Shown here: one piece after another, positions 900 to 12,180 of the stretch
Position numbering within the stretch: position 1 is the stretch's first letter
Layout of the letters: each line of letters starts with the position of its first letter
From: Bacteroidota bacterium
GTDB taxonomy: Bacteria > Bacteroidota > Ignavibacteria > Kryptoniales > JAKASW01
DNA length: 64,000 nt
Direction of reading: 5' to 3'
Assembly: GCA_021789975.1 (NCBI GenBank)
Contig: JAJYIT010000012.1
Coordinates: 1 to 64,000, forward strand
The notes under the pieces: generated by a model
The model's input: only the letters and a program-made list of their open reading frames with translations
What the model was told of the DNA's origin: nothing
Database searches by the model: none
Translations under genes and position numbers: made by a program

Positions 900-1670
900 A
901 TGCAAGAGAAACCCACGATAATGATCCGGATGGGCGCTTCCAGGGGACAAAAACTGACTATCGAGGATGCTGACAAAGTTATCTGGGAAATAGCGGAAAA
1001 GTTTAAGGATGACAAGATATTCATAAGGGCTTTCGGATTAAACTTCACTTCGAGTCCTGGCTGGAAAATCATACGTGACAACTTGAGACCGGAGTGGCGG
1101 CAATACGATAAGGGGCAATTGAAATCGGAACTGATCAAGGAGTTTGCAGGCCTGATTATAATTTCGAAAATCCACAGGGTGTTGGACGTGAACGAATTCA
1201 ATTTGATCGCTGAAAAGCTTATCCGCGACTATGAAAGAACAGATAAGCACAATGAAGTAATGCGAGCCCTGTCGTATGATCGACTTGAATTTAGAGTTTA
1301 TGCAAAAAAACTATATCAAAAATACGAGCAAGAAGCATCTCAGAAGGTGGACCAATCCGCATCGAAAACATCAGAGGGAATTCAGCAAAGTGGTACAGAC
1401 GCAACCTCCAGAGCAATTTCAGACGGAGTATTGATTGCAAGAACGAAAGGACTAAAGACACCAGGGCCGATACCAGACCAAATGATGAACAAATGGTTTC
1501 CAAAAATAGAAAAATTCTCAAACGACAGAACCAAATACGGGAAGCGAAAACTTTCTGAAAATTATAAGAAGAAACGCGACGTAATTCGGCATGAGATAGC
1601 AAGAAAACTCAGGAGTAAGCACCCCTGGAAGAATTCGCACACTTCCACCCATCTTCCACCCCTCATTTGA
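900..1670 (+). CDS. hypothetical protein of the integrative element
   Basis: This encodes 256 residues from the ATG at 900, which has a G-rich ribosome site (GGGGGGCAGC) a few bases upstream; the in-frame start at 876 lies within the palindrome at 814-877 and is less likely. The first ~110 residues look like a mixed helix/strand domain (IMIRMGASRGQKLTIEDAD). The middle is rich in Gln, Ser and Thr, and the last ~60 residues are strongly basic (KYGKRKLSENYKKKRD), which suggests nucleic-acid binding. I recognise no family. It sits upstream of the replication genes, and its last codons overlap the CTTCCACC repeats. Confidence 0.6.
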   Translation: MQEKPTIMIRMGASRGQKLTIEDADKVIWEIAEKFKDDKIFIRAFGLNFTSSPGWKIIRDNLRPEWRQYDKGQLKSELIKEFAGLIIISKIHRVLDVNEFNLIAEKLIRDYERTDKHNEVMRALSYDRLEFRVYAKKLYQKYEQEASQKVDQSASKTSEGIQQSGTDATSRAISDGVLIARTKGLKTPGPIPDQMMNKWFPKIEKFSNDRTKYGKRKLSENYKKKRDVIRHEIARKLRSKHPWKNSHTSTHLPPLI

Positions 1671-2005: not shown

Positions 2006-2257
2006 ATGGGAGCAAATGATCTCTTGGCCGACCTTACCGAAGCAATAGATTTCACGGAGGCGTTGTATCTCCGATTGTCTCACTGGCAGGTTGATTCAAA
2101 GGCAGACCTCGGAATGAAAAATGAATTGCTCAATTACCTGGCCACGGCCTGCGACGCGTTACTTGAGTGTCGGTCAATACTGGATAGTGTTAAATATGGT
2201 TCCTCCGAGGGTTTAACAGAGATACCCGAAGTAAGCATCATGGGGCGCGAATCGTGA
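2006..2257 (+). CDS. small hypothetical protein upstream of the initiator gene
   Basis: This is an 83-residue protein starting at an ATG preceded by CAGGGGGCAAC. It is acidic and mostly helical (LLADLTEAIDFTEALYLRLSHW) with no membrane segment or recognisable motif. Its TGA overlaps the GTG start of the next gene by 4 bases, so it is translationally coupled to the replication initiator and probably belongs to the same operon. Its function is unknown; a regulator or accessory factor of replication is one possibility. Confidence 0.6.
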   Translation: MGANDLLADLTEAIDFTEALYLRLSHWQVDSKADLGMKNELLNYLATACDALLECRSILDSVKYGSSEGLTEIPEVSIMGRES

Positions 2258-3123
2258 AGAAAAACCCTCAGATAAAAGACGGGTTCACCATGATTGCGAA
2301 CGAACTTTATGAGGCTATCATTCGGTATCATTGCAGCGGCGGAGCCAAAGATATTATTCACGCTGTAATCCGGGCCACCTACGGCTTCCAGACGGAGAGC
2401 CGCTCAATTGGCGCGGCCTACCTTGCGAGGCTGACAGGACGGCATCCAAGGCAAGTGTCTTCCGATGTTAAAAGACTTATCGACGCTAACGTCTTATCCG
2501 TGATCAAAGAACATAGTTTCAGTAAATCAAGAATCATTGCCTTGAACAAAGATTACTCAGCCTGGAAGCCTATGAGTGAATCCACTCATAGGCAGGGGTA
2601 TGAGTTAAACCACTCACAGGGTATGAGTGAATCCACTCACTTACCTATGAGTGAAACCACTCCTATAATAAATAAAGAAAGAAACTCTAAAGATATACTC
2701 TCCATTTCGACCAATGAAATCTACGACCATTACAAAACGAAGGTAAAGCCCGGAGCTTCAACCGATGCAAAGAAGAGTATTATCAAGTTATTAAAATCGG
2801 GATTCACAAAGGAACAACTGATCACCTCCATTGACCGCTATTCAGGAAACGGTATGAGTCGTGAGAATAAGTATCGTATCCAGGCGAACAATTTCTTCGG
2901 GCAGAAAGAACGATTCCGTGATTACCTATCCGAACAACCACAAGAACCGACTGAGCAAGATATTCCGCAATACTTGGCCAGTGAGCTTATCGCCCGCAAT
3001 TTTGAAACGAAGGAACATTTCCGGCGGATTCCAGGGACTGAGCTGGTACACTACCAAGGTGTCAAGGACTGTGTTGGAGAGTGCCGCAAACTTGATTTGC
3101 TCAAAAAGGGAGGTGAAGCATGA
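2254..3123 (+). CDS. phage replication protein O-like initiator
   Basis: This encodes 289 residues from a GTG that overlaps the preceding stop. Residues 6-95 (IKDGFTMIANELYEAI, then TGRHPRQVSSDVKRL) match the winged-helix N-terminal domain of lambda O-type initiators, which bind origin iterons and load the helicase. The middle (about residues 107-135) is made of repeated MSESTH-like peptides because four DNA iterons are embedded there. The C-terminal half probably contacts the helicase. The next gene, a DnaB helicase, overlaps its stop by 4 bases, the O-helicase order known from P22-like phages. The assignment rests on the N-terminal domain, the iterons and the neighbour. Confidence 0.8.
   Translation: MKKNPQIKDGFTMIANELYEAIIRYHCSGGAKDIIHAVIRATYGFQTESRSIGAAYLARLTGRHPRQVSSDVKRLIDANVLSVIKEHSFSKSRIIALNKDYSAWKPMSESTHRQGYELNHSQGMSESTHLPMSETTPIINKERNSKDILSISTNEIYDHYKTKVKPGASTDAKKSIIKLLKSGFTKEQLITSIDRYSGNGMSRENKYRIQANNFFGQKERFRDYLSEQPQEPTEQDIPQYLASELIARNFETKEHFRRIPGTELVHYQGVKDCVGECRKLDLLKKGGEA
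2571..2700 (+). other. putative replication origin: four palindromic iterons plus AT-rich stretch, inside the O-like gene
   Basis: Four 20-bp iterons start at 2571, 2599, 2622 and 2646, spaced 28, 23 and 24 bp. The first is an inverted repeat, TATGAGTG-AATC-CACTCATA; the others differ at a few positions. They are followed by an AT-rich stretch at about 2664-2700 (TATAATAAATAAAGAAAG). This copies the layout of lambda ori, where four inverted-repeat iterons inside gene O are followed by an AT-rich unwinding region. Function is inferred from this parallel. Confidence 0.75.
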
Positions 3124-4529
3124 CAGACGATCCATTGCGAATCCCCCCGCAGGATGCTGAGACAGAAAAATCCGTGCTCGGATCAATACTCATGGACGCG
3201 GCCTATGCCCTGCTTCCGGCACGTGAGCTATTGCAACCGGAATCTTTCTACTCAACGGCACACGGCAAAATATTCGATGCAATGCTTGAACTACATGGTG
3301 CAGGAACTGCGATTGACGTTATCACTGTCCGTGAACAATTGCGGAAATCAGGGCACCTTGAGGATGTCGGCGGTTTCGCATACCTAAACGAACTTATACA
3401 ATCCGTGGTTTCCTCAGCGAACATTGGAGCTCACTGTCAGATTGTCGCTGAAAAGTGCATGCTGCGAAGGATCATAGACAGCAACAGGCGCATTCTCGGG
3501 CAATGCTATGATGGTTCAGCAGATGCCTTTGAGCTAATAGACACGGAGCGGAAGGAACTCGACAAGCTCCTGTCCTTCCGTAAACAATCAAGTTCAATTA
3601 CGGACGCGGAGCAATCGCTGGAAATTTATCTTGGTCAGCTTGAACGCCTGAACCATGGTGATGTCGGCTACCTGCGAACAGGATTTCATGAGCTCGATTC
3701 AACACTCGGCGGCGGTTTCCAATTGGGAGACCATGTTATTCTCGCGGGCAATACGGGCACAGGGAAAAGCTCTATCGCATTGCAAATGCTTTTGAGCGTC
3801 TCCCGGAATGTTCCAGCAGCATATTTCTCACTTGAGATGTCAAAGCCGCGAATGATGGCCCGGTCAATAGCGCAACTCGCACGGATTCCGATCCACAGGG
3901 CAACGAATCCGAATTCGCTATTCGATTCTAAAGAAGATGCTGCACGTTACCAGAACGCAATTCAGGACTTTCGTAAGCGGAGAACGTTTCTTGATTGTAC
4001 TCCCGACCTGAGTGTTAACGAACTTTGCTTCCGAATCGACAAGCTCGTGAGAGGCCATGAAGTGAAATTTGTCGTGGTCGATCACATAGGCAAATTGTCG
4101 GAACCCAAAGAGAGATTTCAAAATCGGGAGCGAGAGATTGCGCATTTCTCCTGGAAGCTGACACAGCTCGCTATCAAACATGAAGTTGTAATTCTCACCA
4201 TATCGCCGTTAAACAAAGAGGCAGAGAACTTCACGCAACCTAGTTTAGGTCACATGCGGGATTCGGGCATGTTGTCGTATGATGCTCGGACGGTTCTACT
4301 CTTAAGCAACCCGATGCCGGATTCAGCTTTCGGCCAAGAGGGAGAGCGAAAGGCAAAGCTCACCGTGGCAAAGCAAGGCGATGGAGAGAGTGGCGTTTCG
4401 GTCGAGCTTAGTTTTCATGGCAATCGCGGAGCATACTTTGAAGACGGCCCCTCAATGTCCAACCGCGAACCTCAAGTAAGACCAGAGAAGATGAATCAAC
4501 AGCTTGAAAGCGAACCATTACCTTTTTGA
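3120..4529 (+). CDS. DnaB-type replicative helicase
   Basis: This 469-residue protein is close to usual DnaB length. Residues 8-105 (PPQDAETEKSVLGSIL) are the DnaB N-terminal domain that contacts primase. The RecA-like motor starts near 185 with GFHELDSTLGGGFQLGD, the Walker A loop is GNTGTGKS (210-217), and the Walker B Asp is D321 in VVVDHIG. Both motifs differ from the host-type forms (GRPSMGKT and VDYLQL), which fits a mobile-element version. It overlaps the initiator gene by 4 bases. The element therefore brings its own helicase and should need only host primase and polymerase; this last point is inference. Confidence 0.9.
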   Translation: MTDDPLRIPPQDAETEKSVLGSILMDAAYALLPARELLQPESFYSTAHGKIFDAMLELHGAGTAIDVITVREQLRKSGHLEDVGGFAYLNELIQSVVSSANIGAHCQIVAEKCMLRRIIDSNRRILGQCYDGSADAFELIDTERKELDKLLSFRKQSSSITDAEQSLEIYLGQLERLNHGDVGYLRTGFHELDSTLGGGFQLGDHVILAGNTGTGKSSIALQMLLSVSRNVPAAYFSLEMSKPRMMARSIAQLARIPIHRATNPNSLFDSKEDAARYQNAIQDFRKRRTFLDCTPDLSVNELCFRIDKLVRGHEVKFVVVDHIGKLSEPKERFQNREREIAHFSWKLTQLAIKHEVVILTISPLNKEAENFTQPSLGHMRDSGMLSYDARTVLLLSNPMPDSAFGQEGERKAKLTVAKQGDGESGVSVELSFHGNRGAYFEDGPSMSNREPQVRPEKMNQQLESEPLPF

Positions 4530-4567: not shown

Positions 4568-5059
4568 GTGACACAAACAACCATGAAACAGTTGAATGAT
4601 TACTTTGAATTAACGGAATCGGAACGCGGTTCTGCAATATGGCGGTACTTCGATTCTCAAGAAGGCCCGACATGGAAGCTGTACGTCGAAGACTCAAAAA
4701 TCTCCAAACAGATTAGATCTTGGCAAGGGGCTCAGCCCGGGGCCACGTATTTCCGGCCAGACAGCATTAAGTGTGGTGAGGACTTTGTCGTTCCCAAAAG
4801 GCTTCTCAGGCGAGCGTTGAAGTTGATCGGGATTTCTCTCCAGAAACGTAAACTGACAGAGGCAGAGCTTATCAATCTTCATCAAGGCGAGCATAAACTT
4901 CGAGGAAAGAATTTTAAGTCGGATTTTGCCTTGGATTTTTCAAAAAGGAAGACGGCAGACGAACGATCTCAGGCCGACCCTGTGTTGGATACCCCCTCTG
5001 ACACTGGAGCGTTTTTAGGGCAAGATTTTGCCTCAAAAGTAGAGGGAGAAACCCCGTGA
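4568..5059 (+). CDS. hypothetical protein between helicase and integrase
   Basis: This encodes 163 residues from a GTG with AAAGGA 7 bases upstream; an ATG five codons later is the alternative. The N-terminal ~100 residues look folded (DYFELTESERGSAIWRYFDS, then PKRLLRRALKLIGISLQKRK), while the last 50 are polar and probably disordered. I do not recognise it. It lies 38 bases after the helicase on the same strand and is probably co-transcribed with the replication genes. A role in replication or excision is only a guess from position. Confidence 0.55.
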   Translation: MTQTTMKQLNDYFELTESERGSAIWRYFDSQEGPTWKLYVEDSKISKQIRSWQGAQPGATYFRPDSIKCGEDFVVPKRLLRRALKLIGISLQKRKLTEAELINLHQGEHKLRGKNFKSDFALDFSKRKTADERSQADPVLDTPSDTGAFLGQDFASKVEGETP

Positions 5060-5105: not shown

Positions 5106-6071
5106 ATGGACACAAAATCTTTGACCGTAATTGAGCCGGAACCGGTGAGCAAAAGTCCCGACGTCCGGGTACTACTCGCAGAGTGGCACAGTCACCTAAG
5201 CCTCCTTGTGCGAACGGGAGAAATCCAGGAAGCTACAGCCCGGACGTACCGGATCGGTGTTGACCGGTTTATGTCATGGCTGGCCTCCAGAACCACGATA
5301 GGAACCGAAGTCATCCGGGAGTGGATCGCTGACCTTAAAGGACAAAACAGAACTCCTAACACAGTCGCTGTTTGGCTAAGTGGAGTTCGGGCATTCTTTT
5401 CGTGGTGCGTAAGAAACCGCAAACTATCTTTCAACCCTGCCGAAGGTGTACGCGGCATTATGAGAGCATCAACGGCCACCATGCACCGGAGGGAGGCCCT
5501 GACCGATTCTGAGGTCTTGAACGTTCTTGATGCTATCGACAGGGAGAGTGCAATCGGGAAGCGTGACCTTGCCCTTATCGGCATTATGGCCTATTGCGGA
5601 GCGAGGCAATCGGACTTGTTTCGTGCCGACCTCGAAGACCTGAAACCTATCGACAAAGGATTCAAACTCTTCGTGCGTGGGAAAGGCAGAATAGAAAGTG
5701 ATGAAGTCCTTATGCTGGTACATCCTCAGCTTATCGAATTCGTCAGAAAGTACCTCGTAGTCAGGGGCAATGAATCCGGCCCCTTATTCCTCAGCTTCTC
5801 ACATAGGAACCGGAATGAACGTCTCTCTCTGCGGGGAATGAGACTTATCGTAAAAAACTATTTCAGGCAAGCCGGAGTCATCGGAACAAAATCGACACAT
5901 AGCATTCGTCATGCCGCAGCCTCAAACTCCCTACGTCATGGTGCACCTTTGGAGAAAGTCAAAACCATGTTGAGACACGCGAGCATGGACACGACCATGA
6001 TTTACATTCACGAGTTGGACAGGGAGACGAATCCGGGAGAGGCTTTCATCGACTACGGAAAAAGGGACTGA
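5106..6071 (+). CDS. tyrosine recombinase / phage-type integrase (first of a pair)
   Basis: This is a 321-residue site-specific recombinase. An N-terminal SAM-like DNA-binding domain (about 20-118) is followed by the catalytic domain with R167 (CGARQSD), K194, H265 and R268 (HSIRHA), H291 (LRHASMDTT) and the nucleophile Y300 (TMIYIH). All expected catalytic residues are present, so it should be active. It is followed after 6 bases by a second recombinase gene, and the pair lies next to the tRNA-derived attachment site. Its size fits XerC/D-like integrases of mobile elements. Confidence 0.92.
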   Translation: MDTKSLTVIEPEPVSKSPDVRVLLAEWHSHLSLLVRTGEIQEATARTYRIGVDRFMSWLASRTTIGTEVIREWIADLKGQNRTPNTVAVWLSGVRAFFSWCVRNRKLSFNPAEGVRGIMRASTATMHRREALTDSEVLNVLDAIDRESAIGKRDLALIGIMAYCGARQSDLFRADLEDLKPIDKGFKLFVRGKGRIESDEVLMLVHPQLIEFVRKYLVVRGNESGPLFLSFSHRNRNERLSLRGMRLIVKNYFRQAGVIGTKSTHSIRHAAASNSLRHGAPLEKVKTMLRHASMDTTMIYIHELDRETNPGEAFIDYGKRD

Positions 6072-6077
6072 TTAAGT

Positions 6078-7214
6078 TTGTCGGATGCTGCTTACATACC
6101 GCTTTTAATCTTGAACGATGTTCGCTTGAGCCGGGCCGATCTCCGTGTCTTTGGAACGCTATCGGCTAAGGCAGACGGTCAAGGTAAGTGTTCCATGACG
6201 CGAAGCGAGCTTGAAGGTGTGTGCGGGATCAAGTGCAGCGGTCAGATGATAAGTCGGCTTATGAAATTCGGATATATCGGCATCGAGAACAATTCAACAG
6301 GAACCACTTTCAAGATAATCGAAGGACAGGACGCGAAACGGGAGGCGCGGCATTCATTAGGCAGTTATTGTATTGAATACGTGGGCTATCTCCACAAGAC
6401 ACACTCGGAAAAGTACGCCAAAGATGCAGCGCGGACATTCGGAAAGCTCCAGCATTTCACCGGAGATATTGCATTAAACGAGCTGACCCCGATCATGCTT
6501 GAAACTTTCTTCGCTGACTCATTCAAGGGGGCACAATTCGAGACGGCAAAAAATTATCGCACACTCAAGGCAGCTTTTAATCATGCAGTGAGCTGGAATT
6601 ATCTTCACGACAGCTCTATCAGAAAAGTCAAACTGCCTAAGCTGACGAAATCTATTCCGGCATTCCTGAGCGAACATGAGCTGCAATCGGTTCTTGACCA
6701 TACGTCTAACTGCGATATGAGAGACTTATTCACCCTTGCATTTCATACCGGGTTTAGATTGTCTGAGCTTCTCAATCTGGAATGGCAGGCCGTGAACCTG
6801 AGCGAAAGCACAGTGAGAGTATCTAACAGCGAAACGTTCACCACAAAGAGCAAGAAGGAACGAATTGTTCCCCTTAATGGGGTTGCACTTAATATGCTGA
6901 GTGAGAGACGGCCGAAAGTGTTCAACCTCGAAACCCGGAACTATGTCTTTGCGAAAACTCCTGGTGAACAATACAAATCCGATTCTGTCAGCAAGTTGTT
7001 CAAGAAAGCTGTCCGAGCTGCGGGCCTCAATGAGCGTTTGCACTTCCATAGCTTGAGACACTCCACGGCTTCAAACATGGTACGGGCTGGAGTCCCGCTT
7101 GCAGTCGTAAAAGAAATCCTGGGCCACAGCGACATAACGACCACCATGATCTACAGCCATGTTCAGAATGAGGACAAGATAAAAGCCGTCAAAGCCCTGG
7201 AGAGTGTGCCATGA
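6078..7214 (+). CDS. tyrosine recombinase with a winged-helix-like N-terminal extension
   Basis: This encodes 378 residues from a TTG, with no strong ribosome site, so it probably depends on coupling to the first integrase. Residues 1-82 (LSRADLRVFGTLSAKADGQGK, then SELEGVCGIKCSGQMISRLM) look like a winged helix-turn-helix of the kind found in replication and regulatory proteins. Residues 90-190 form the SAM-like arm and 195-370 the catalytic domain with R227, H324, R327 (HSLRHST), H350 (LGHSDITTT) and Y359. It is distinct in sequence from its neighbour. The extra domain may recognise element DNA or regulate excision; that is inference. Confidence 0.88.
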   Translation: MSDAAYIPLLILNDVRLSRADLRVFGTLSAKADGQGKCSMTRSELEGVCGIKCSGQMISRLMKFGYIGIENNSTGTTFKIIEGQDAKREARHSLGSYCIEYVGYLHKTHSEKYAKDAARTFGKLQHFTGDIALNELTPIMLETFFADSFKGAQFETAKNYRTLKAAFNHAVSWNYLHDSSIRKVKLPKLTKSIPAFLSEHELQSVLDHTSNCDMRDLFTLAFHTGFRLSELLNLEWQAVNLSESTVRVSNSETFTTKSKKERIVPLNGVALNMLSERRPKVFNLETRNYVFAKTPGEQYKSDSVSKLFKKAVRAAGLNERLHFHSLRHSTASNMVRAGVPLAVVKEILGHSDITTTMIYSHVQNEDKIKAVKALESVP

Positions 7215-7469: not shown

Positions 7470-7515
7470 CTGACTCATAATCAGCGGGTCGGGGGTTCAA
7501 GTCCCTCAGGGCCCA
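7470..7515 (+). other. tRNA-Met(CAT) 3' half, probable element attachment site
   Basis: CTGA-CTCATAA-TCAG (7470-7484) is an anticodon arm with anticodon CAT. It is followed by a T arm (GGGGG-TTCAAGT-CCCTC) and the acceptor strand AGGGCCC with discriminator A at 7515. No matching 5' half, D arm or GGGCCC strand exists upstream, so this is not a complete gene. Integrases commonly cross over in the anticodon arm and leave such a 3' copy at one end. I read it as an att site, with element DNA to the left and chromosome to the right. A full tRNA-Met should lie at the other end, outside the window. Confidence 0.75.
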
Positions 7516-7908
7516 CTCATCCCCCCAAAAAACAATTCCGTTGGCGGAGTTTCTTATTGTTCGTACATGCCATGCAGTGACTCCTCGAATCCCACTCCGT
7601 TTATATTCCGATGTCAAATTGGATTTTTGCTTCGCCAGAGTTCCATCACTCATGCCCGCCTTGCTTTCGATAACATCCCTGAATGGTATGACCTTACAGC
7701 ATCCCATCCCATCTCATGTGAACGTGATTCTATTGTCCTCTTGGTTCGGATGCTAAACGACCTGGTCGTTGACTTAGATACTAGCTTCCTTACCGATCAA
7801 GTTGCATATTCCTCCATTGAGGCCGCGACATTACACACCGTACTCGAACCATTCGGTAGTTCGGGATATAGTACTTATGTCGAACTACAAATTTTGAGAG
7901 TACGGGAT
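7516..7908. other. 393 bases without a recognisable gene
   Basis: Short open frames exist on both strands but none shows a ribosome site or familiar motif. This is the first chromosomal DNA beyond the att site. It leads into the broken Fic gene and may contain the unrecognisable start of it. Confidence 0.4.
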
Positions 7909-9264: not shown

Positions 9265-12180
9265 ATGCGTCTCTTCCTGATGATTCTGATTTTTTCGGAT
9301 TTCATATCTATTTCGACAACTGCGTTCGCTGCTTCTTCACAGATCACCGGCTCTGTCAAAGATGCCCGATCCGGTGATCCTCTTCCTGGAGCAAACATCC
9401 TACTTGTCGGCACAAGCCTCGGTGCATCTACCGATCTCAATGGGAACTTCTCGATATTGGAGGTGCCTTCAGGTTCGTACATGCTGCGCGCAAGTTACGT
9501 CGGATATAAGACTTATGAGACGAATGTGAATGTCGAGGAAGGTAAAACTTTGAAGTTGAATCTAAAGCTTCTGGCCGTGGGAGTACGAGGTAAAGAGGTG
9601 ATGGTCATGGCACAGGCGAGCGGACAAAACCAGGCGATCAATCAGCAGTTGTCTTCCTCAAATATCGTGAATGTCGTTTCTGCAGCGCGAATACAGGAAT
9701 TGCCTGATGCGAACGCGGCGGAATCTCTCGGAAGGTTACCGGGCATGTCTGTCTTGAGAAGTGGCGGCGAGGCAGATGAGATCGTTATACGCGGAATAGC
9801 GCCGAAATACAACCGAATAATGATCAACGGGGTGCAGTTGACCTCTTCGAACCAGAACGACGAGAGCGTGGATCTCAGTATGATTTCTTCGAACATGCTG
9901 GAAGGAATGGAGGTGAAGAAAACCGTAACCCCCGACATGGATGCGAACGTTATCGGCGGTACTGTAAACCTTGAATTGAGAGAAGCGCACGTGAAGATCC
10001 CAGGAGTGCCGGTGTTCGGGCTCCTTGCACAGGGTGGGTATGATGCACTGTCGGATGCCAACAACAAGCTTAGTAATTACAAATATGTTGCGAGTATCGA
10101 GGACAGGTTTTTTCATGAGAGGCTAGGTGTGTTCATTCAGGCAGATGTTGAACGGAAGAATCTTTCGTCGAACCAATTGGGAGCGTCTTACACTAATAGC
10201 GGGAACAGCGTTACCCAGTACTTAACCACGAGTCTAAACCTGGATGACATGCCCCGCGACAGACAGAGGTATGACGGAGCCCTTGTCATAGATTACAGAC
10301 TCCCGGATGGGACAATTAAATTCTCTAATTTTCTCAGCAGTGGAACGACAGATGTGGCAGACCGTGGAGAAAGTTATGGCGTAGCTAGTAACACTCATGG
10401 ATACACGCTGAATTACACGAGTAGCGCATTGAGCGTGATGACTGATGCTCTCCATCTGGAGTACCAGTTTCCAGTATTCCATTTGAATGCTGAGATATCA
10501 CATGCCTACACACAGACCAGGGATCCACAGGATTGGACCGTGAATTTCCAGCAGGGCTCCGCCGGACTAGGAAGTCTTGTTAACGTTACAAACCTGAACC
10601 CCTTGAATATTCTACAGGTCGCGCATGATTCCGCTCAGGGAACGTACTTAACCTCACTTCAGACGTCTTCTACTTATTCCGGCGCACGAGCATTTACAGG
10701 TTCACTGGACCTTTCGGCAAACTTAGACTTTTCTGACTTCATAACATCGGTGATAAAATTCGGGGGAACCTATCGATATGAAAGAAGAATATATGCATAT
10801 GGTGAGAATGTAGGTGGGGGATTGGGATACACTGCGTCCTACTTTATCGATTCTCTGATTACCTCTCATCTCAAAATTCCATCGCAGTATATCTACTCGG
10901 GCACAGACATCATGATGGTTCCGTTCATCGATCCGAACTACAGTTACGGGAACTTCCTTGGCGGAAGCTATTCGATGTCTTATCCCCTGAATTTCGGGAT
11001 GCTATCTGACCTGACCAACTATCTAAGCAACGATGCGAGCGTTTACATCCACGATACGTTTGGGTCGACAACACACAACTATACGGGCCACGAAAATCAA
11101 GGCGCGGCGTTTGTAATGGCTACAATAAATTTCGGCCCGCAGGTCAATGTGGTCGGAGGGGTTCGCTTTCAAAGCCTTCAAACGCTCTACACCGCTCCAC
11201 AAGGTCAGGAGAACACCTCATCCTCACTCGGTGGACCATACCTTCATTACGACACGACTGTAACGGCAGAGCATGGCTATTGGCTACCGGACATCGCGTT
11301 AAGATACAAGCCGATATCATGGTTCGATTTACGTCTCTCATACACGCATACGTTAGCCTATCCCGACTTCGAAGCAATAATACCGAGGATCGATGTGCCG
11401 CCGTCGGTTGGCGGCACAATTTCGTGGAACAATACTCAACTTACTCCGTCACGCTCGACGAACTATGATGCTCAACTCTCCTTCTACGACAATTCAATCG
11501 GTTTGCTCACTATCGGAGGATTCCTGAAGAAAATTGACGGACTGATTTACCCATGGACTTTTTACGTGTCGGGCCAAAATGTTCTTCCGTATTATCCCGC
11601 AGGTCTGCACCCGGTTTCGGCGCCTACCGGCACGTACCGCATTGCAACCTATGTCAACGACGCGAATCGCGCCACTGATTACGGTCTGGAGTTGGACTGG
11701 GAAACACATTTCTGGTATCTCCCGCATCCGTTTGACGGTCTGGTCCTTGATATCAATTACACGCATGTCTTTTCTAATGAGATTTATCCTTACACCACTG
11801 TAGAAAAGGTCGGTCGAAATGTCTTCTACGTCGATACTTCATTTACCGACCGTCTTCTTTACCAGCCGGATAACATAGCGAATTTATCGGTAGGCTACGA
11901 TTACGAAGGTTTCTCCGTCCGCGTTTCAATGATATACCAGGACAACATATTCTATGGAACGAATTTCTGGCCACAGCTCAGGATAACTGAATCGGCATAT
12001 GGCAGATGGGATGTTTCAGCGAAGCAGGACCTACCATGGTACGGTTTACAACTCTACGGTGATCTAAGCAATATCAACGGTGAAAACGACGTCTATGTTA
12101 TCCAGGCTGCCACGGGTGTTCCACAATCCGAGCAGGACTACGGTATGAATGCCGACTTCGGTCTTAGAGTGAATTTTTGA
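9265..12180 (+). CDS. TonB-dependent outer-membrane receptor with CarboxypepD_reg domain
   Basis: From the ATG at 9265 (GAGGA upstream) this encodes 971 residues beginning with a signal peptide (MRLFLMILIF, cleavage after AFA). Next comes a carboxypeptidase-regulatory-like domain (ITGSVKDARSGDPLPGANI, to SYVGYKT), then a plug (AAESLGRLPGMSVLRSGG, then VIRGIAPKYNRIMINGVQL), and a barrel ending in the terminal Phe of FGLRVNF. It should import a bulky ligand across the outer membrane using TonB. The sugar kinase, DUF4855 and hexosaminidase remnants downstream suggest a glycan ligand. In-frame starts at 9181 and 9199 would put residues before the signal peptide. No SusD partner follows. Confidence 0.9.
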   Translation: MRLFLMILIFSDFISISTTAFAASSQITGSVKDARSGDPLPGANILLVGTSLGASTDLNGNFSILEVPSGSYMLRASYVGYKTYETNVNVEEGKTLKLNLKLLAVGVRGKEVMVMAQASGQNQAINQQLSSSNIVNVVSAARIQELPDANAAESLGRLPGMSVLRSGGEADEIVIRGIAPKYNRIMINGVQLTSSNQNDESVDLSMISSNMLEGMEVKKTVTPDMDANVIGGTVNLELREAHVKIPGVPVFGLLAQGGYDALSDANNKLSNYKYVASIEDRFFHERLGVFIQADVERKNLSSNQLGASYTNSGNSVTQYLTTSLNLDDMPRDRQRYDGALVIDYRLPDGTIKFSNFLSSGTTDVADRGESYGVASNTHGYTLNYTSSALSVMTDALHLEYQFPVFHLNAEISHAYTQTRDPQDWTVNFQQGSAGLGSLVNVTNLNPLNILQVAHDSAQGTYLTSLQTSSTYSGARAFTGSLDLSANLDFSDFITSVIKFGGTYRYERRIYAYGENVGGGLGYTASYFIDSLITSHLKIPSQYIYSGTDIMMVPFIDPNYSYGNFLGGSYSMSYPLNFGMLSDLTNYLSNDASVYIHDTFGSTTHNYTGHENQGAAFVMATINFGPQVNVVGGVRFQSLQTLYTAPQGQENTSSSLGGPYLHYDTTVTAEHGYWLPDIALRYKPISWFDLRLSYTHTLAYPDFEAIIPRIDVPPSVGGTISWNNTQLTPSRSTNYDAQLSFYDNSIGLLTIGGFLKKIDGLIYPWTFYVSGQNVLPYYPAGLHPVSAPTGTYRIATYVNDANRATDYGLELDWETHFWYLPHPFDGLVLDINYTHVFSNEIYPYTTVEKVGRNVFYVDTSFTDRLLYQPDNIANLSVGYDYEGFSVRVSMIYQDNIFYGTNFWPQLRITESAYGRWDVSAKQDLPWYGLQLYGDLSNINGENDVYVIQAATGVPQSEQDYGMNADFGLRVNF

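Follow-up and report, generated by a model that had tools for sequence, protein, structure and literature searches.

Does the pair of genes near the start of this contig, one coding for an O-type initiator and the next for a DnaB-type helicase, form a replication module with its origin inside the initiator gene, and what kind of element carries it? The window, i.e., the whole 64-kb stretch of DNA analyzed here, corresponds to contig C44 of a 4.7-Mb genome. Our analysis indicates that these genes are very probably a lambda/P22-type replication module of a tRNA-integrated mobile element, with four iterons as origin. The replication part of this reading follows from the initiator family, an iteron array beyond chance, the AT-rich tract, the helicase family, the arrays of homologues and the matched change of DNA-binding domain and iterons, and the assignment to a tRNA-integrated element follows from attachment repeats of 47 bp in the window and about 50 bp in the related genome G010.

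An O-type initiator gene with four iterons

The initiator (289 aa, GTG start, positions 2254-3123 of the plus strand) belongs to PHROG O-like families and scores over the curated cut-offs of PF04492 (68.7 bits, cut-off 28.7, 6.3e-19) and TIGR01610 (55.8 bits, cut-off 45.5), both named for phage replication protein O. It consists of an N-terminal DNA-binding domain (2254-2565, plus strand; Pfam match at residues 6-104, and alignment), a linker containing the iterons, and a C-terminal domain (2713-2940, plus strand) that is conserved in two genomes of the same genus, G006 and G010, and is the candidate helicase-contacting part. Within the N-terminal domain, TGRHPRQVSSDVK is the putative recognition helix according to the family alignment. 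The C-terminal domain may distantly resemble the phage C-terminal domain TIGR02220/PF09524, with scores below the curated cut-offs (25.6 and 26.1 bits for the G010 protein). Structure prediction of the initiator from three sequences was poor (mean pLDDT 53, pTM 0.30), and a search of the PDB found no sequence relative of the O protein.

The linker-coding region, about 320 bp into the ORF, holds four 20-bp iterons on the plus strand: TATGAGTGAATCCACTCATA at 2571-2590, a perfect 8-bp inverted repeat with 8/8 complementary arm bases; TATGAGTTAAACCACTCACA at 2599-2618 (6/8), whose reading frame differs from that of the other copies; TATGAGTGAATCCACTCACT at 2622-2641 (6/8); and TATGAGTGAAACCACTCCTA at 2646-2665 (7/8). 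They are spaced by 28, 23 and 24 bp, and in the rest of the 64-kb window the half-site pattern has scattered one-mismatch matches only. The array was compared with two null models, synonymous-codon shuffling, which keeps the protein, and codon permutation. Summed over 18 bp, the pairwise identities of the best four 18-mers reach 98/108, whereas the highest values were 74 in 40 synonymous shuffles and 58 in 40 codon permutations; a second, independent statistic gives 50/54 against maxima of 42 and 35, respectively, in 100 shuffles of each type. As positive controls, the same method recovers the annotated lambda iterons and four repeats within the annotated P22 rep_origin. Within the gene, AT content peaks at 77.5% in 40-mers that start at about 2664-2668, right after the fourth iteron, and the tract at 2664-2707 (plus strand) is a candidate DNA-unwinding element by analogy with the lambda model. 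Its motif AAATAAAGAAAGAAAC is also found in G006, with a near-match outside any long ORF in G571, a genome from another family of the same class. The main elements of the original prediction, namely a lambda-like array within an O-type initiator gene, four 20-bp iterons beginning at 2571, 2599, 2622 and 2646, the first a perfect 8-bp inverted repeat, and an AT-rich stretch behind them, are thus confirmed, the repeats lying exactly where they had been placed and far above protein-preserving shuffles.

An 83-aa ORF (2006-2257, plus strand) precedes the initiator and overlaps its start, and small ORFs that resemble it by eye lie ahead of the initiator gene in G006 (72 aa), G010 (93 aa) and G008. 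Further upstream in the same element, a 248-aa ORF (924-1670, plus strand) has no family match in the profile search, and its counterparts of similar size in G006 (318 aa) and G010 (245 aa) are identified by position only.

A DnaB-type helicase encoded directly downstream

The gene that follows (3120-4529, plus strand) codes for a DnaB-type replicative helicase of 469 aa with the N- as well as the C-terminal DnaB domain (PF00772 and PF03796), consistent with the proposal that a DnaB gene directly follows the initiator without a lambda P-like loader. The further proposal that its Walker motifs are non-canonical is contradicted when the helicase is aligned with DnaB proteins of solved structure and with P22 gp12: Walker A is GNTGTGKS at residues 210-217 (canonical GxxxxGKS) and Walker B is VVVD (the usual hhhD form). 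Deviations are found elsewhere, with SPLNK instead of SQLNR in motif 3 and KQG instead of KQR at the arginine-finger position (about residues 414-425), the R of KQR being the arginine finger in Geobacillus DnaB. Both deviations are common to all three homologues of the genus (window, G006 and G010), and a relative on contig C40 of G004 keeps KQR. The host's own DnaB, encoded by a separate chromosomal gene on contig C77, is 41% identical to the element helicase and has KQR. The K-x-R arginine-finger motif of GkDnaB, the host DnaB and P22 gp12 is missing in the window helicase; it is not family-defining, and its absence makes the activity of the helicase less certain.

Placement in a probable tRNA-integrated mobile element

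The module is part of a tRNA-integrated mobile element (a prophage, a satellite or a related island). Its right part comprises a 163-aa orphan ORF (4568-5059, plus strand) with no match in Pfam, PHROG and NCBIfam profile searches, a tyrosine recombinase (5106-6071, plus strand; PF00589, 8.9e-22), a second tyrosine recombinase, the integrase nearest the attachment site (6078-7214, plus strand; PF00589, 5.3e-41), and an attachment-site remnant (7470-7516, plus strand) whose 47 bp match the 3' end of tRNA-Met (CAT) exactly. Two different tyrosine recombinase genes thus lie in tandem (5106-7214) beside the attachment remnant. An intact tRNA-Met is found at 2023-2097 of contig C32, adjoined by another, third integrase, and we infer a single island with one end on C32 and the other on C44. 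On the left, positions 1-126, which are also the start of contig C44, are the end of a repeated element, with 100% identical stretches of at least 123 bp at six other places of the genome (at least seven copies); judging from the peptide MVKKRHTVESIVAMLREA, a likely transposase start on the minus strand, this repeat is probably an IS3-type insertion sequence. The part of the element to the left of the repeat is lost at the contig start.

A related element in G010 (L005:5497-13786, contig C50) is delimited by 50-bp direct repeats of a tRNA-Ala end, with one mismatch, which enclose about 8.2 kb coding for an integrase, an Xre-type regulator, an IrrE-like peptidase, an initiator and DnaB. No recognizable capsid, tail or terminase gene was found in these 8.2 kb, and the element looks like a satellite or reduced prophage.

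Related modules and iteron arrays in Bacteroidota

Relatives were identified in two of the 12 other genomes of the genus. Searches of named genomes and viral contigs with the single window protein gave no matches; with the three-member alignment, named genomes yielded only the two relatives from the genus, JAKAGT010000005.1 (Bacteroidetes bacterium) and JAHECO010000017.1 (Candidatus Kryptoniota bacterium), and viral contigs again none. In G006, four iterons (ATGTCCCAAACAGGACAC) occupy the same place in the gene with a different sequence and a spacing of 19/24/24, followed by the same tract as in the window (ATAAATAAAGAAAGAAAC). The G010 initiator shares its C-terminal half with the window protein (about 60%) and has a different N-terminal half; its linker contains short direct GTGACAACAAA repeats, weakly above shuffles. 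The N-terminal part of this initiator is split over two frames (L005:8877-9194), and this copy is probably broken or misassembled. In G008 (contig C49, L076:735-2694), the same operon plan—a 149-aa gene, a small ORF, an initiator and DnaB—is found with an initiator of a different type, which suggests that the operon is conserved while its initiators are exchanged.

At a larger scale, O genes were collected with PF04492, with matches over the cut-off in 14 of 395 genomes of the phylum and 15 of 391 of the class; the iteron test did not include weak matches below or near the cut-off (L017-L026), and several of those listed were Crp-like proteins or HTH proteins of other kinds. Arrays above all shuffles were found in 13 of 17 Bacteroidota O genes other than that of the window, the last spacings being mostly 23-24 bp and the inverted repeats having an A-rich center. 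The arrays of the O genes of G161, G291, G314b and G582 did not exceed shuffles, the truncated O gene of G413 had no iterons, and the O gene of Halomonas phage YPHTV-1, which adjoins DnaB, had no array in the shuffle test. In-gene iteron arrays are therefore predictable from sequence for most of the Bacteroidota O-family genes tested. When viral contigs were scanned for window-type iterons in pairs, a single contig came up (L058, IMG/VR, 193,958 bp), in which two iteron-like inverted repeats (9335-9371) lie inside the gene of an HTH_36-domain protein that is not of the O family and is perhaps another initiator with an in-gene origin.

Co-variation of iterons and the DNA-binding domain

The original prediction had suggested testing for co-variation of the iterons with the N-terminal DNA-binding domain of the initiator, and two contrasts and a Mantel test speak in favor of it. 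Between the window and G006, the C-terminal domain (72% identical) and the helicase (about 75%) are alike, and the recognition helix differs together with the iterons (TATGAGTG..CACTCA versus ATGTCCC..GGACAC). The reverse situation is seen in G571, where the O protein is an N-terminal domain only (107 aa; TIGR01610, 49.2 bits) and three window-like iterons (TATGAGTGAAnnnnCTCA) lie in non-coding DNA directly behind the stop codon; on this 7.7-kb contig, the C-terminal domain may have been lost through decay. Window and G571 share the recognition-helix pattern TGRHxRQ, and their iteron similarity is 0.83, compared with a mean of 0.46 (SD 0.08). Iterons thus differ where C-terminal domain and helicase are alike and are alike where the C-terminal domain is absent, i.e., they follow the DNA-binding domain, and since those of G571 are near-identical and non-coding, the repeats are conserved as DNA without any coding constraint. 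In G571, a DnaB gene lies directly upstream and the origin would be beside, not inside, the O gene (contig C192, L048:1486-1900; also L057:4441-4870).

Among 19 proteins, helix similarity correlates with iteron similarity (r = 0.35, Mantel p = 0.0005), also when the rest of the N-terminal domain is taken into account (partial Mantel p = 0.0025). The rest of the domain predicts iteron similarity equally well (r = 0.40; partial r 0.32 versus 0.24 for the helix), indicating that part of the correlation is due to common descent. There are signs that elements exchange the DNA-binding domain of the initiator together with the repeats that match it. A wider and tentative proposal, nearly as probable as its contrary, sees the O N-terminal domain and the iterons as a matched, portable cassette for origin specificity, passed among elements whose replication proteins are not otherwise related (mini-initiators such as that of G571 among them), one architecture (inverted repeats, an A-rich center and a pitch of 23-24 bp) being kept across Bacteroidota, Bacillota and Pseudomonadota while the half-sites diverge; a readable code between helix and half-site may exist. 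The roughly twenty initiator-iteron pairs are a ready set for working out the rules of DNA recognition by O proteins.

Proposed mechanism and alternative explanations

By analogy with lambda and P22, the module would be expected to support iteron binding, melting, helicase recruitment and autonomous replication. After excision of the element, the O-type initiator would bind the four in-gene iterons through its N-terminal domain, probably as dimers, to judge from the protein family and the inverted-repeat form of the sites. This complex would strain the adjoining AT-rich tract (2664-2707) and, as in lambda, lead to its opening, upon which the C-terminal domain would recruit the element's own DnaB to the opened strand without a P-like loader, as the P22 plan and the adjacency of the two genes suggest. 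Host primase and polymerase would then take over. Such modules are candidate replicons for vectors in uncultivated Bacteroidota.

The repeats could be thought to be a feature of the protein, with the DNA similarity secondary, because three of the four copies code for MSESTH or MSETTP. The original prediction had in fact described the iterons as repeated MSESTH peptides; this is correct for copies 1 and 3 and nearly so for copy 4 (MSETTP), and fails for copy 2, whose frame is different and gives YELNHS. That frame, together with synonymous shuffles that never reach the observed identity (74 at most versus 98) and the non-coding, near-identical repeats of G571, led us to reject this explanation, which is exceedingly improbable, and with it the notion that the peptide is what is conserved. 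An operator array through which the initiator would chiefly regulate its own transcription or that of the helicase, the origin lying elsewhere, would likewise account for inverted-repeat sites of an HTH protein within its own operon. However, the sites are some 320 bp into the coding sequence, not at a promoter, and their position, copy number and spacing match those of the lambda and P22 origins, with an AT-rich tract directly after them, making autoregulation quite unlikely.

Somewhat more weight, within what is still a low probability, has to be given to decay, i.e., to a once-functional origin that no longer replicates: an IS-type end cuts the island short where the contig begins, the G010 relative has a broken initiator N-terminal domain, and the helicase is without the usual arginine-finger residue. 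Yet the window has intact ORFs for both initiator and helicase, and the odd helicase residues are common to three homologues that are themselves divergent (72-75% identical), which argues for maintained function. A working replication module with its origin in the iterons remains the preferred reading.

Comparison with known replication systems

The module resembles the lambda origin, in which the O gene likewise contains four inverted-repeat iterons at intervals of about 20-24 bp with an AT-rich tract after them (PMC7466680). The difference lies in the next gene: in lambda, the P loader brings the host DnaB, whereas in the window a DnaB gene takes the place of P, and no P-like loader gene follows O.

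Compared with Gram-negative PICIs, the elements share an integrase, an attachment site, an own replicon and the absence of recognizable structural genes, the last being seen in G010, since the left part of the window element is missing. In PICIs, the origin has an AT-rich region between two sets of iterons, and Pri-Rep and AlpA are present (PMC6092414), whereas a single iteron set is present here and neither AlpA nor Pri-Rep was found among the profile matches.

Lambda O and P22 gene 18 contain four iterons of about 20 bp each, phage L gene 18 contains six of 11 bp, all of them different, and P22 gp12 is a DnaB-type helicase (PMC8022706). The direct repeats of phage L find a parallel in those of the G010 linker, as opposed to the four inverted-repeat iterons of the window. 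The closest likeness is to P22, whose GenBank record shows an O-like gene 18 with a rep_origin inside and, directly after it, the DnaB-like gene 12, exactly the plan seen here, so the combination of O with an own DnaB is not novel as had been supposed. A limited search of the open-access literature, which carries little weight, returned no description of such an origin for this bacterial group. Located with the same program, the iterons start at near-identical gene coordinates, 349/369/393/416 in lambda, 353/373/397/420 in P22 and 318/346/369/393 in the window, with spacings of 20/24/23 in both phages and 28/23/24 here. Divergence from P22 is nonetheless considerable: the N-terminal domains are only 33% identical, the C-terminal domains are not recognizably related, the iteron sequences differ, the helicase has KQG instead of the K-x-R arginine finger, and the module resides in a tRNA-integrated island of Bacteroidota. 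Through these comparisons, an origin plan familiar from phages of enterobacteria gains a wider range that takes in mobile elements from Kryptoniota-like and other Bacteroidota, the plan of the window being that of P22 in a new host group, the Candidatus Kryptoniota-related Bacteroidota.
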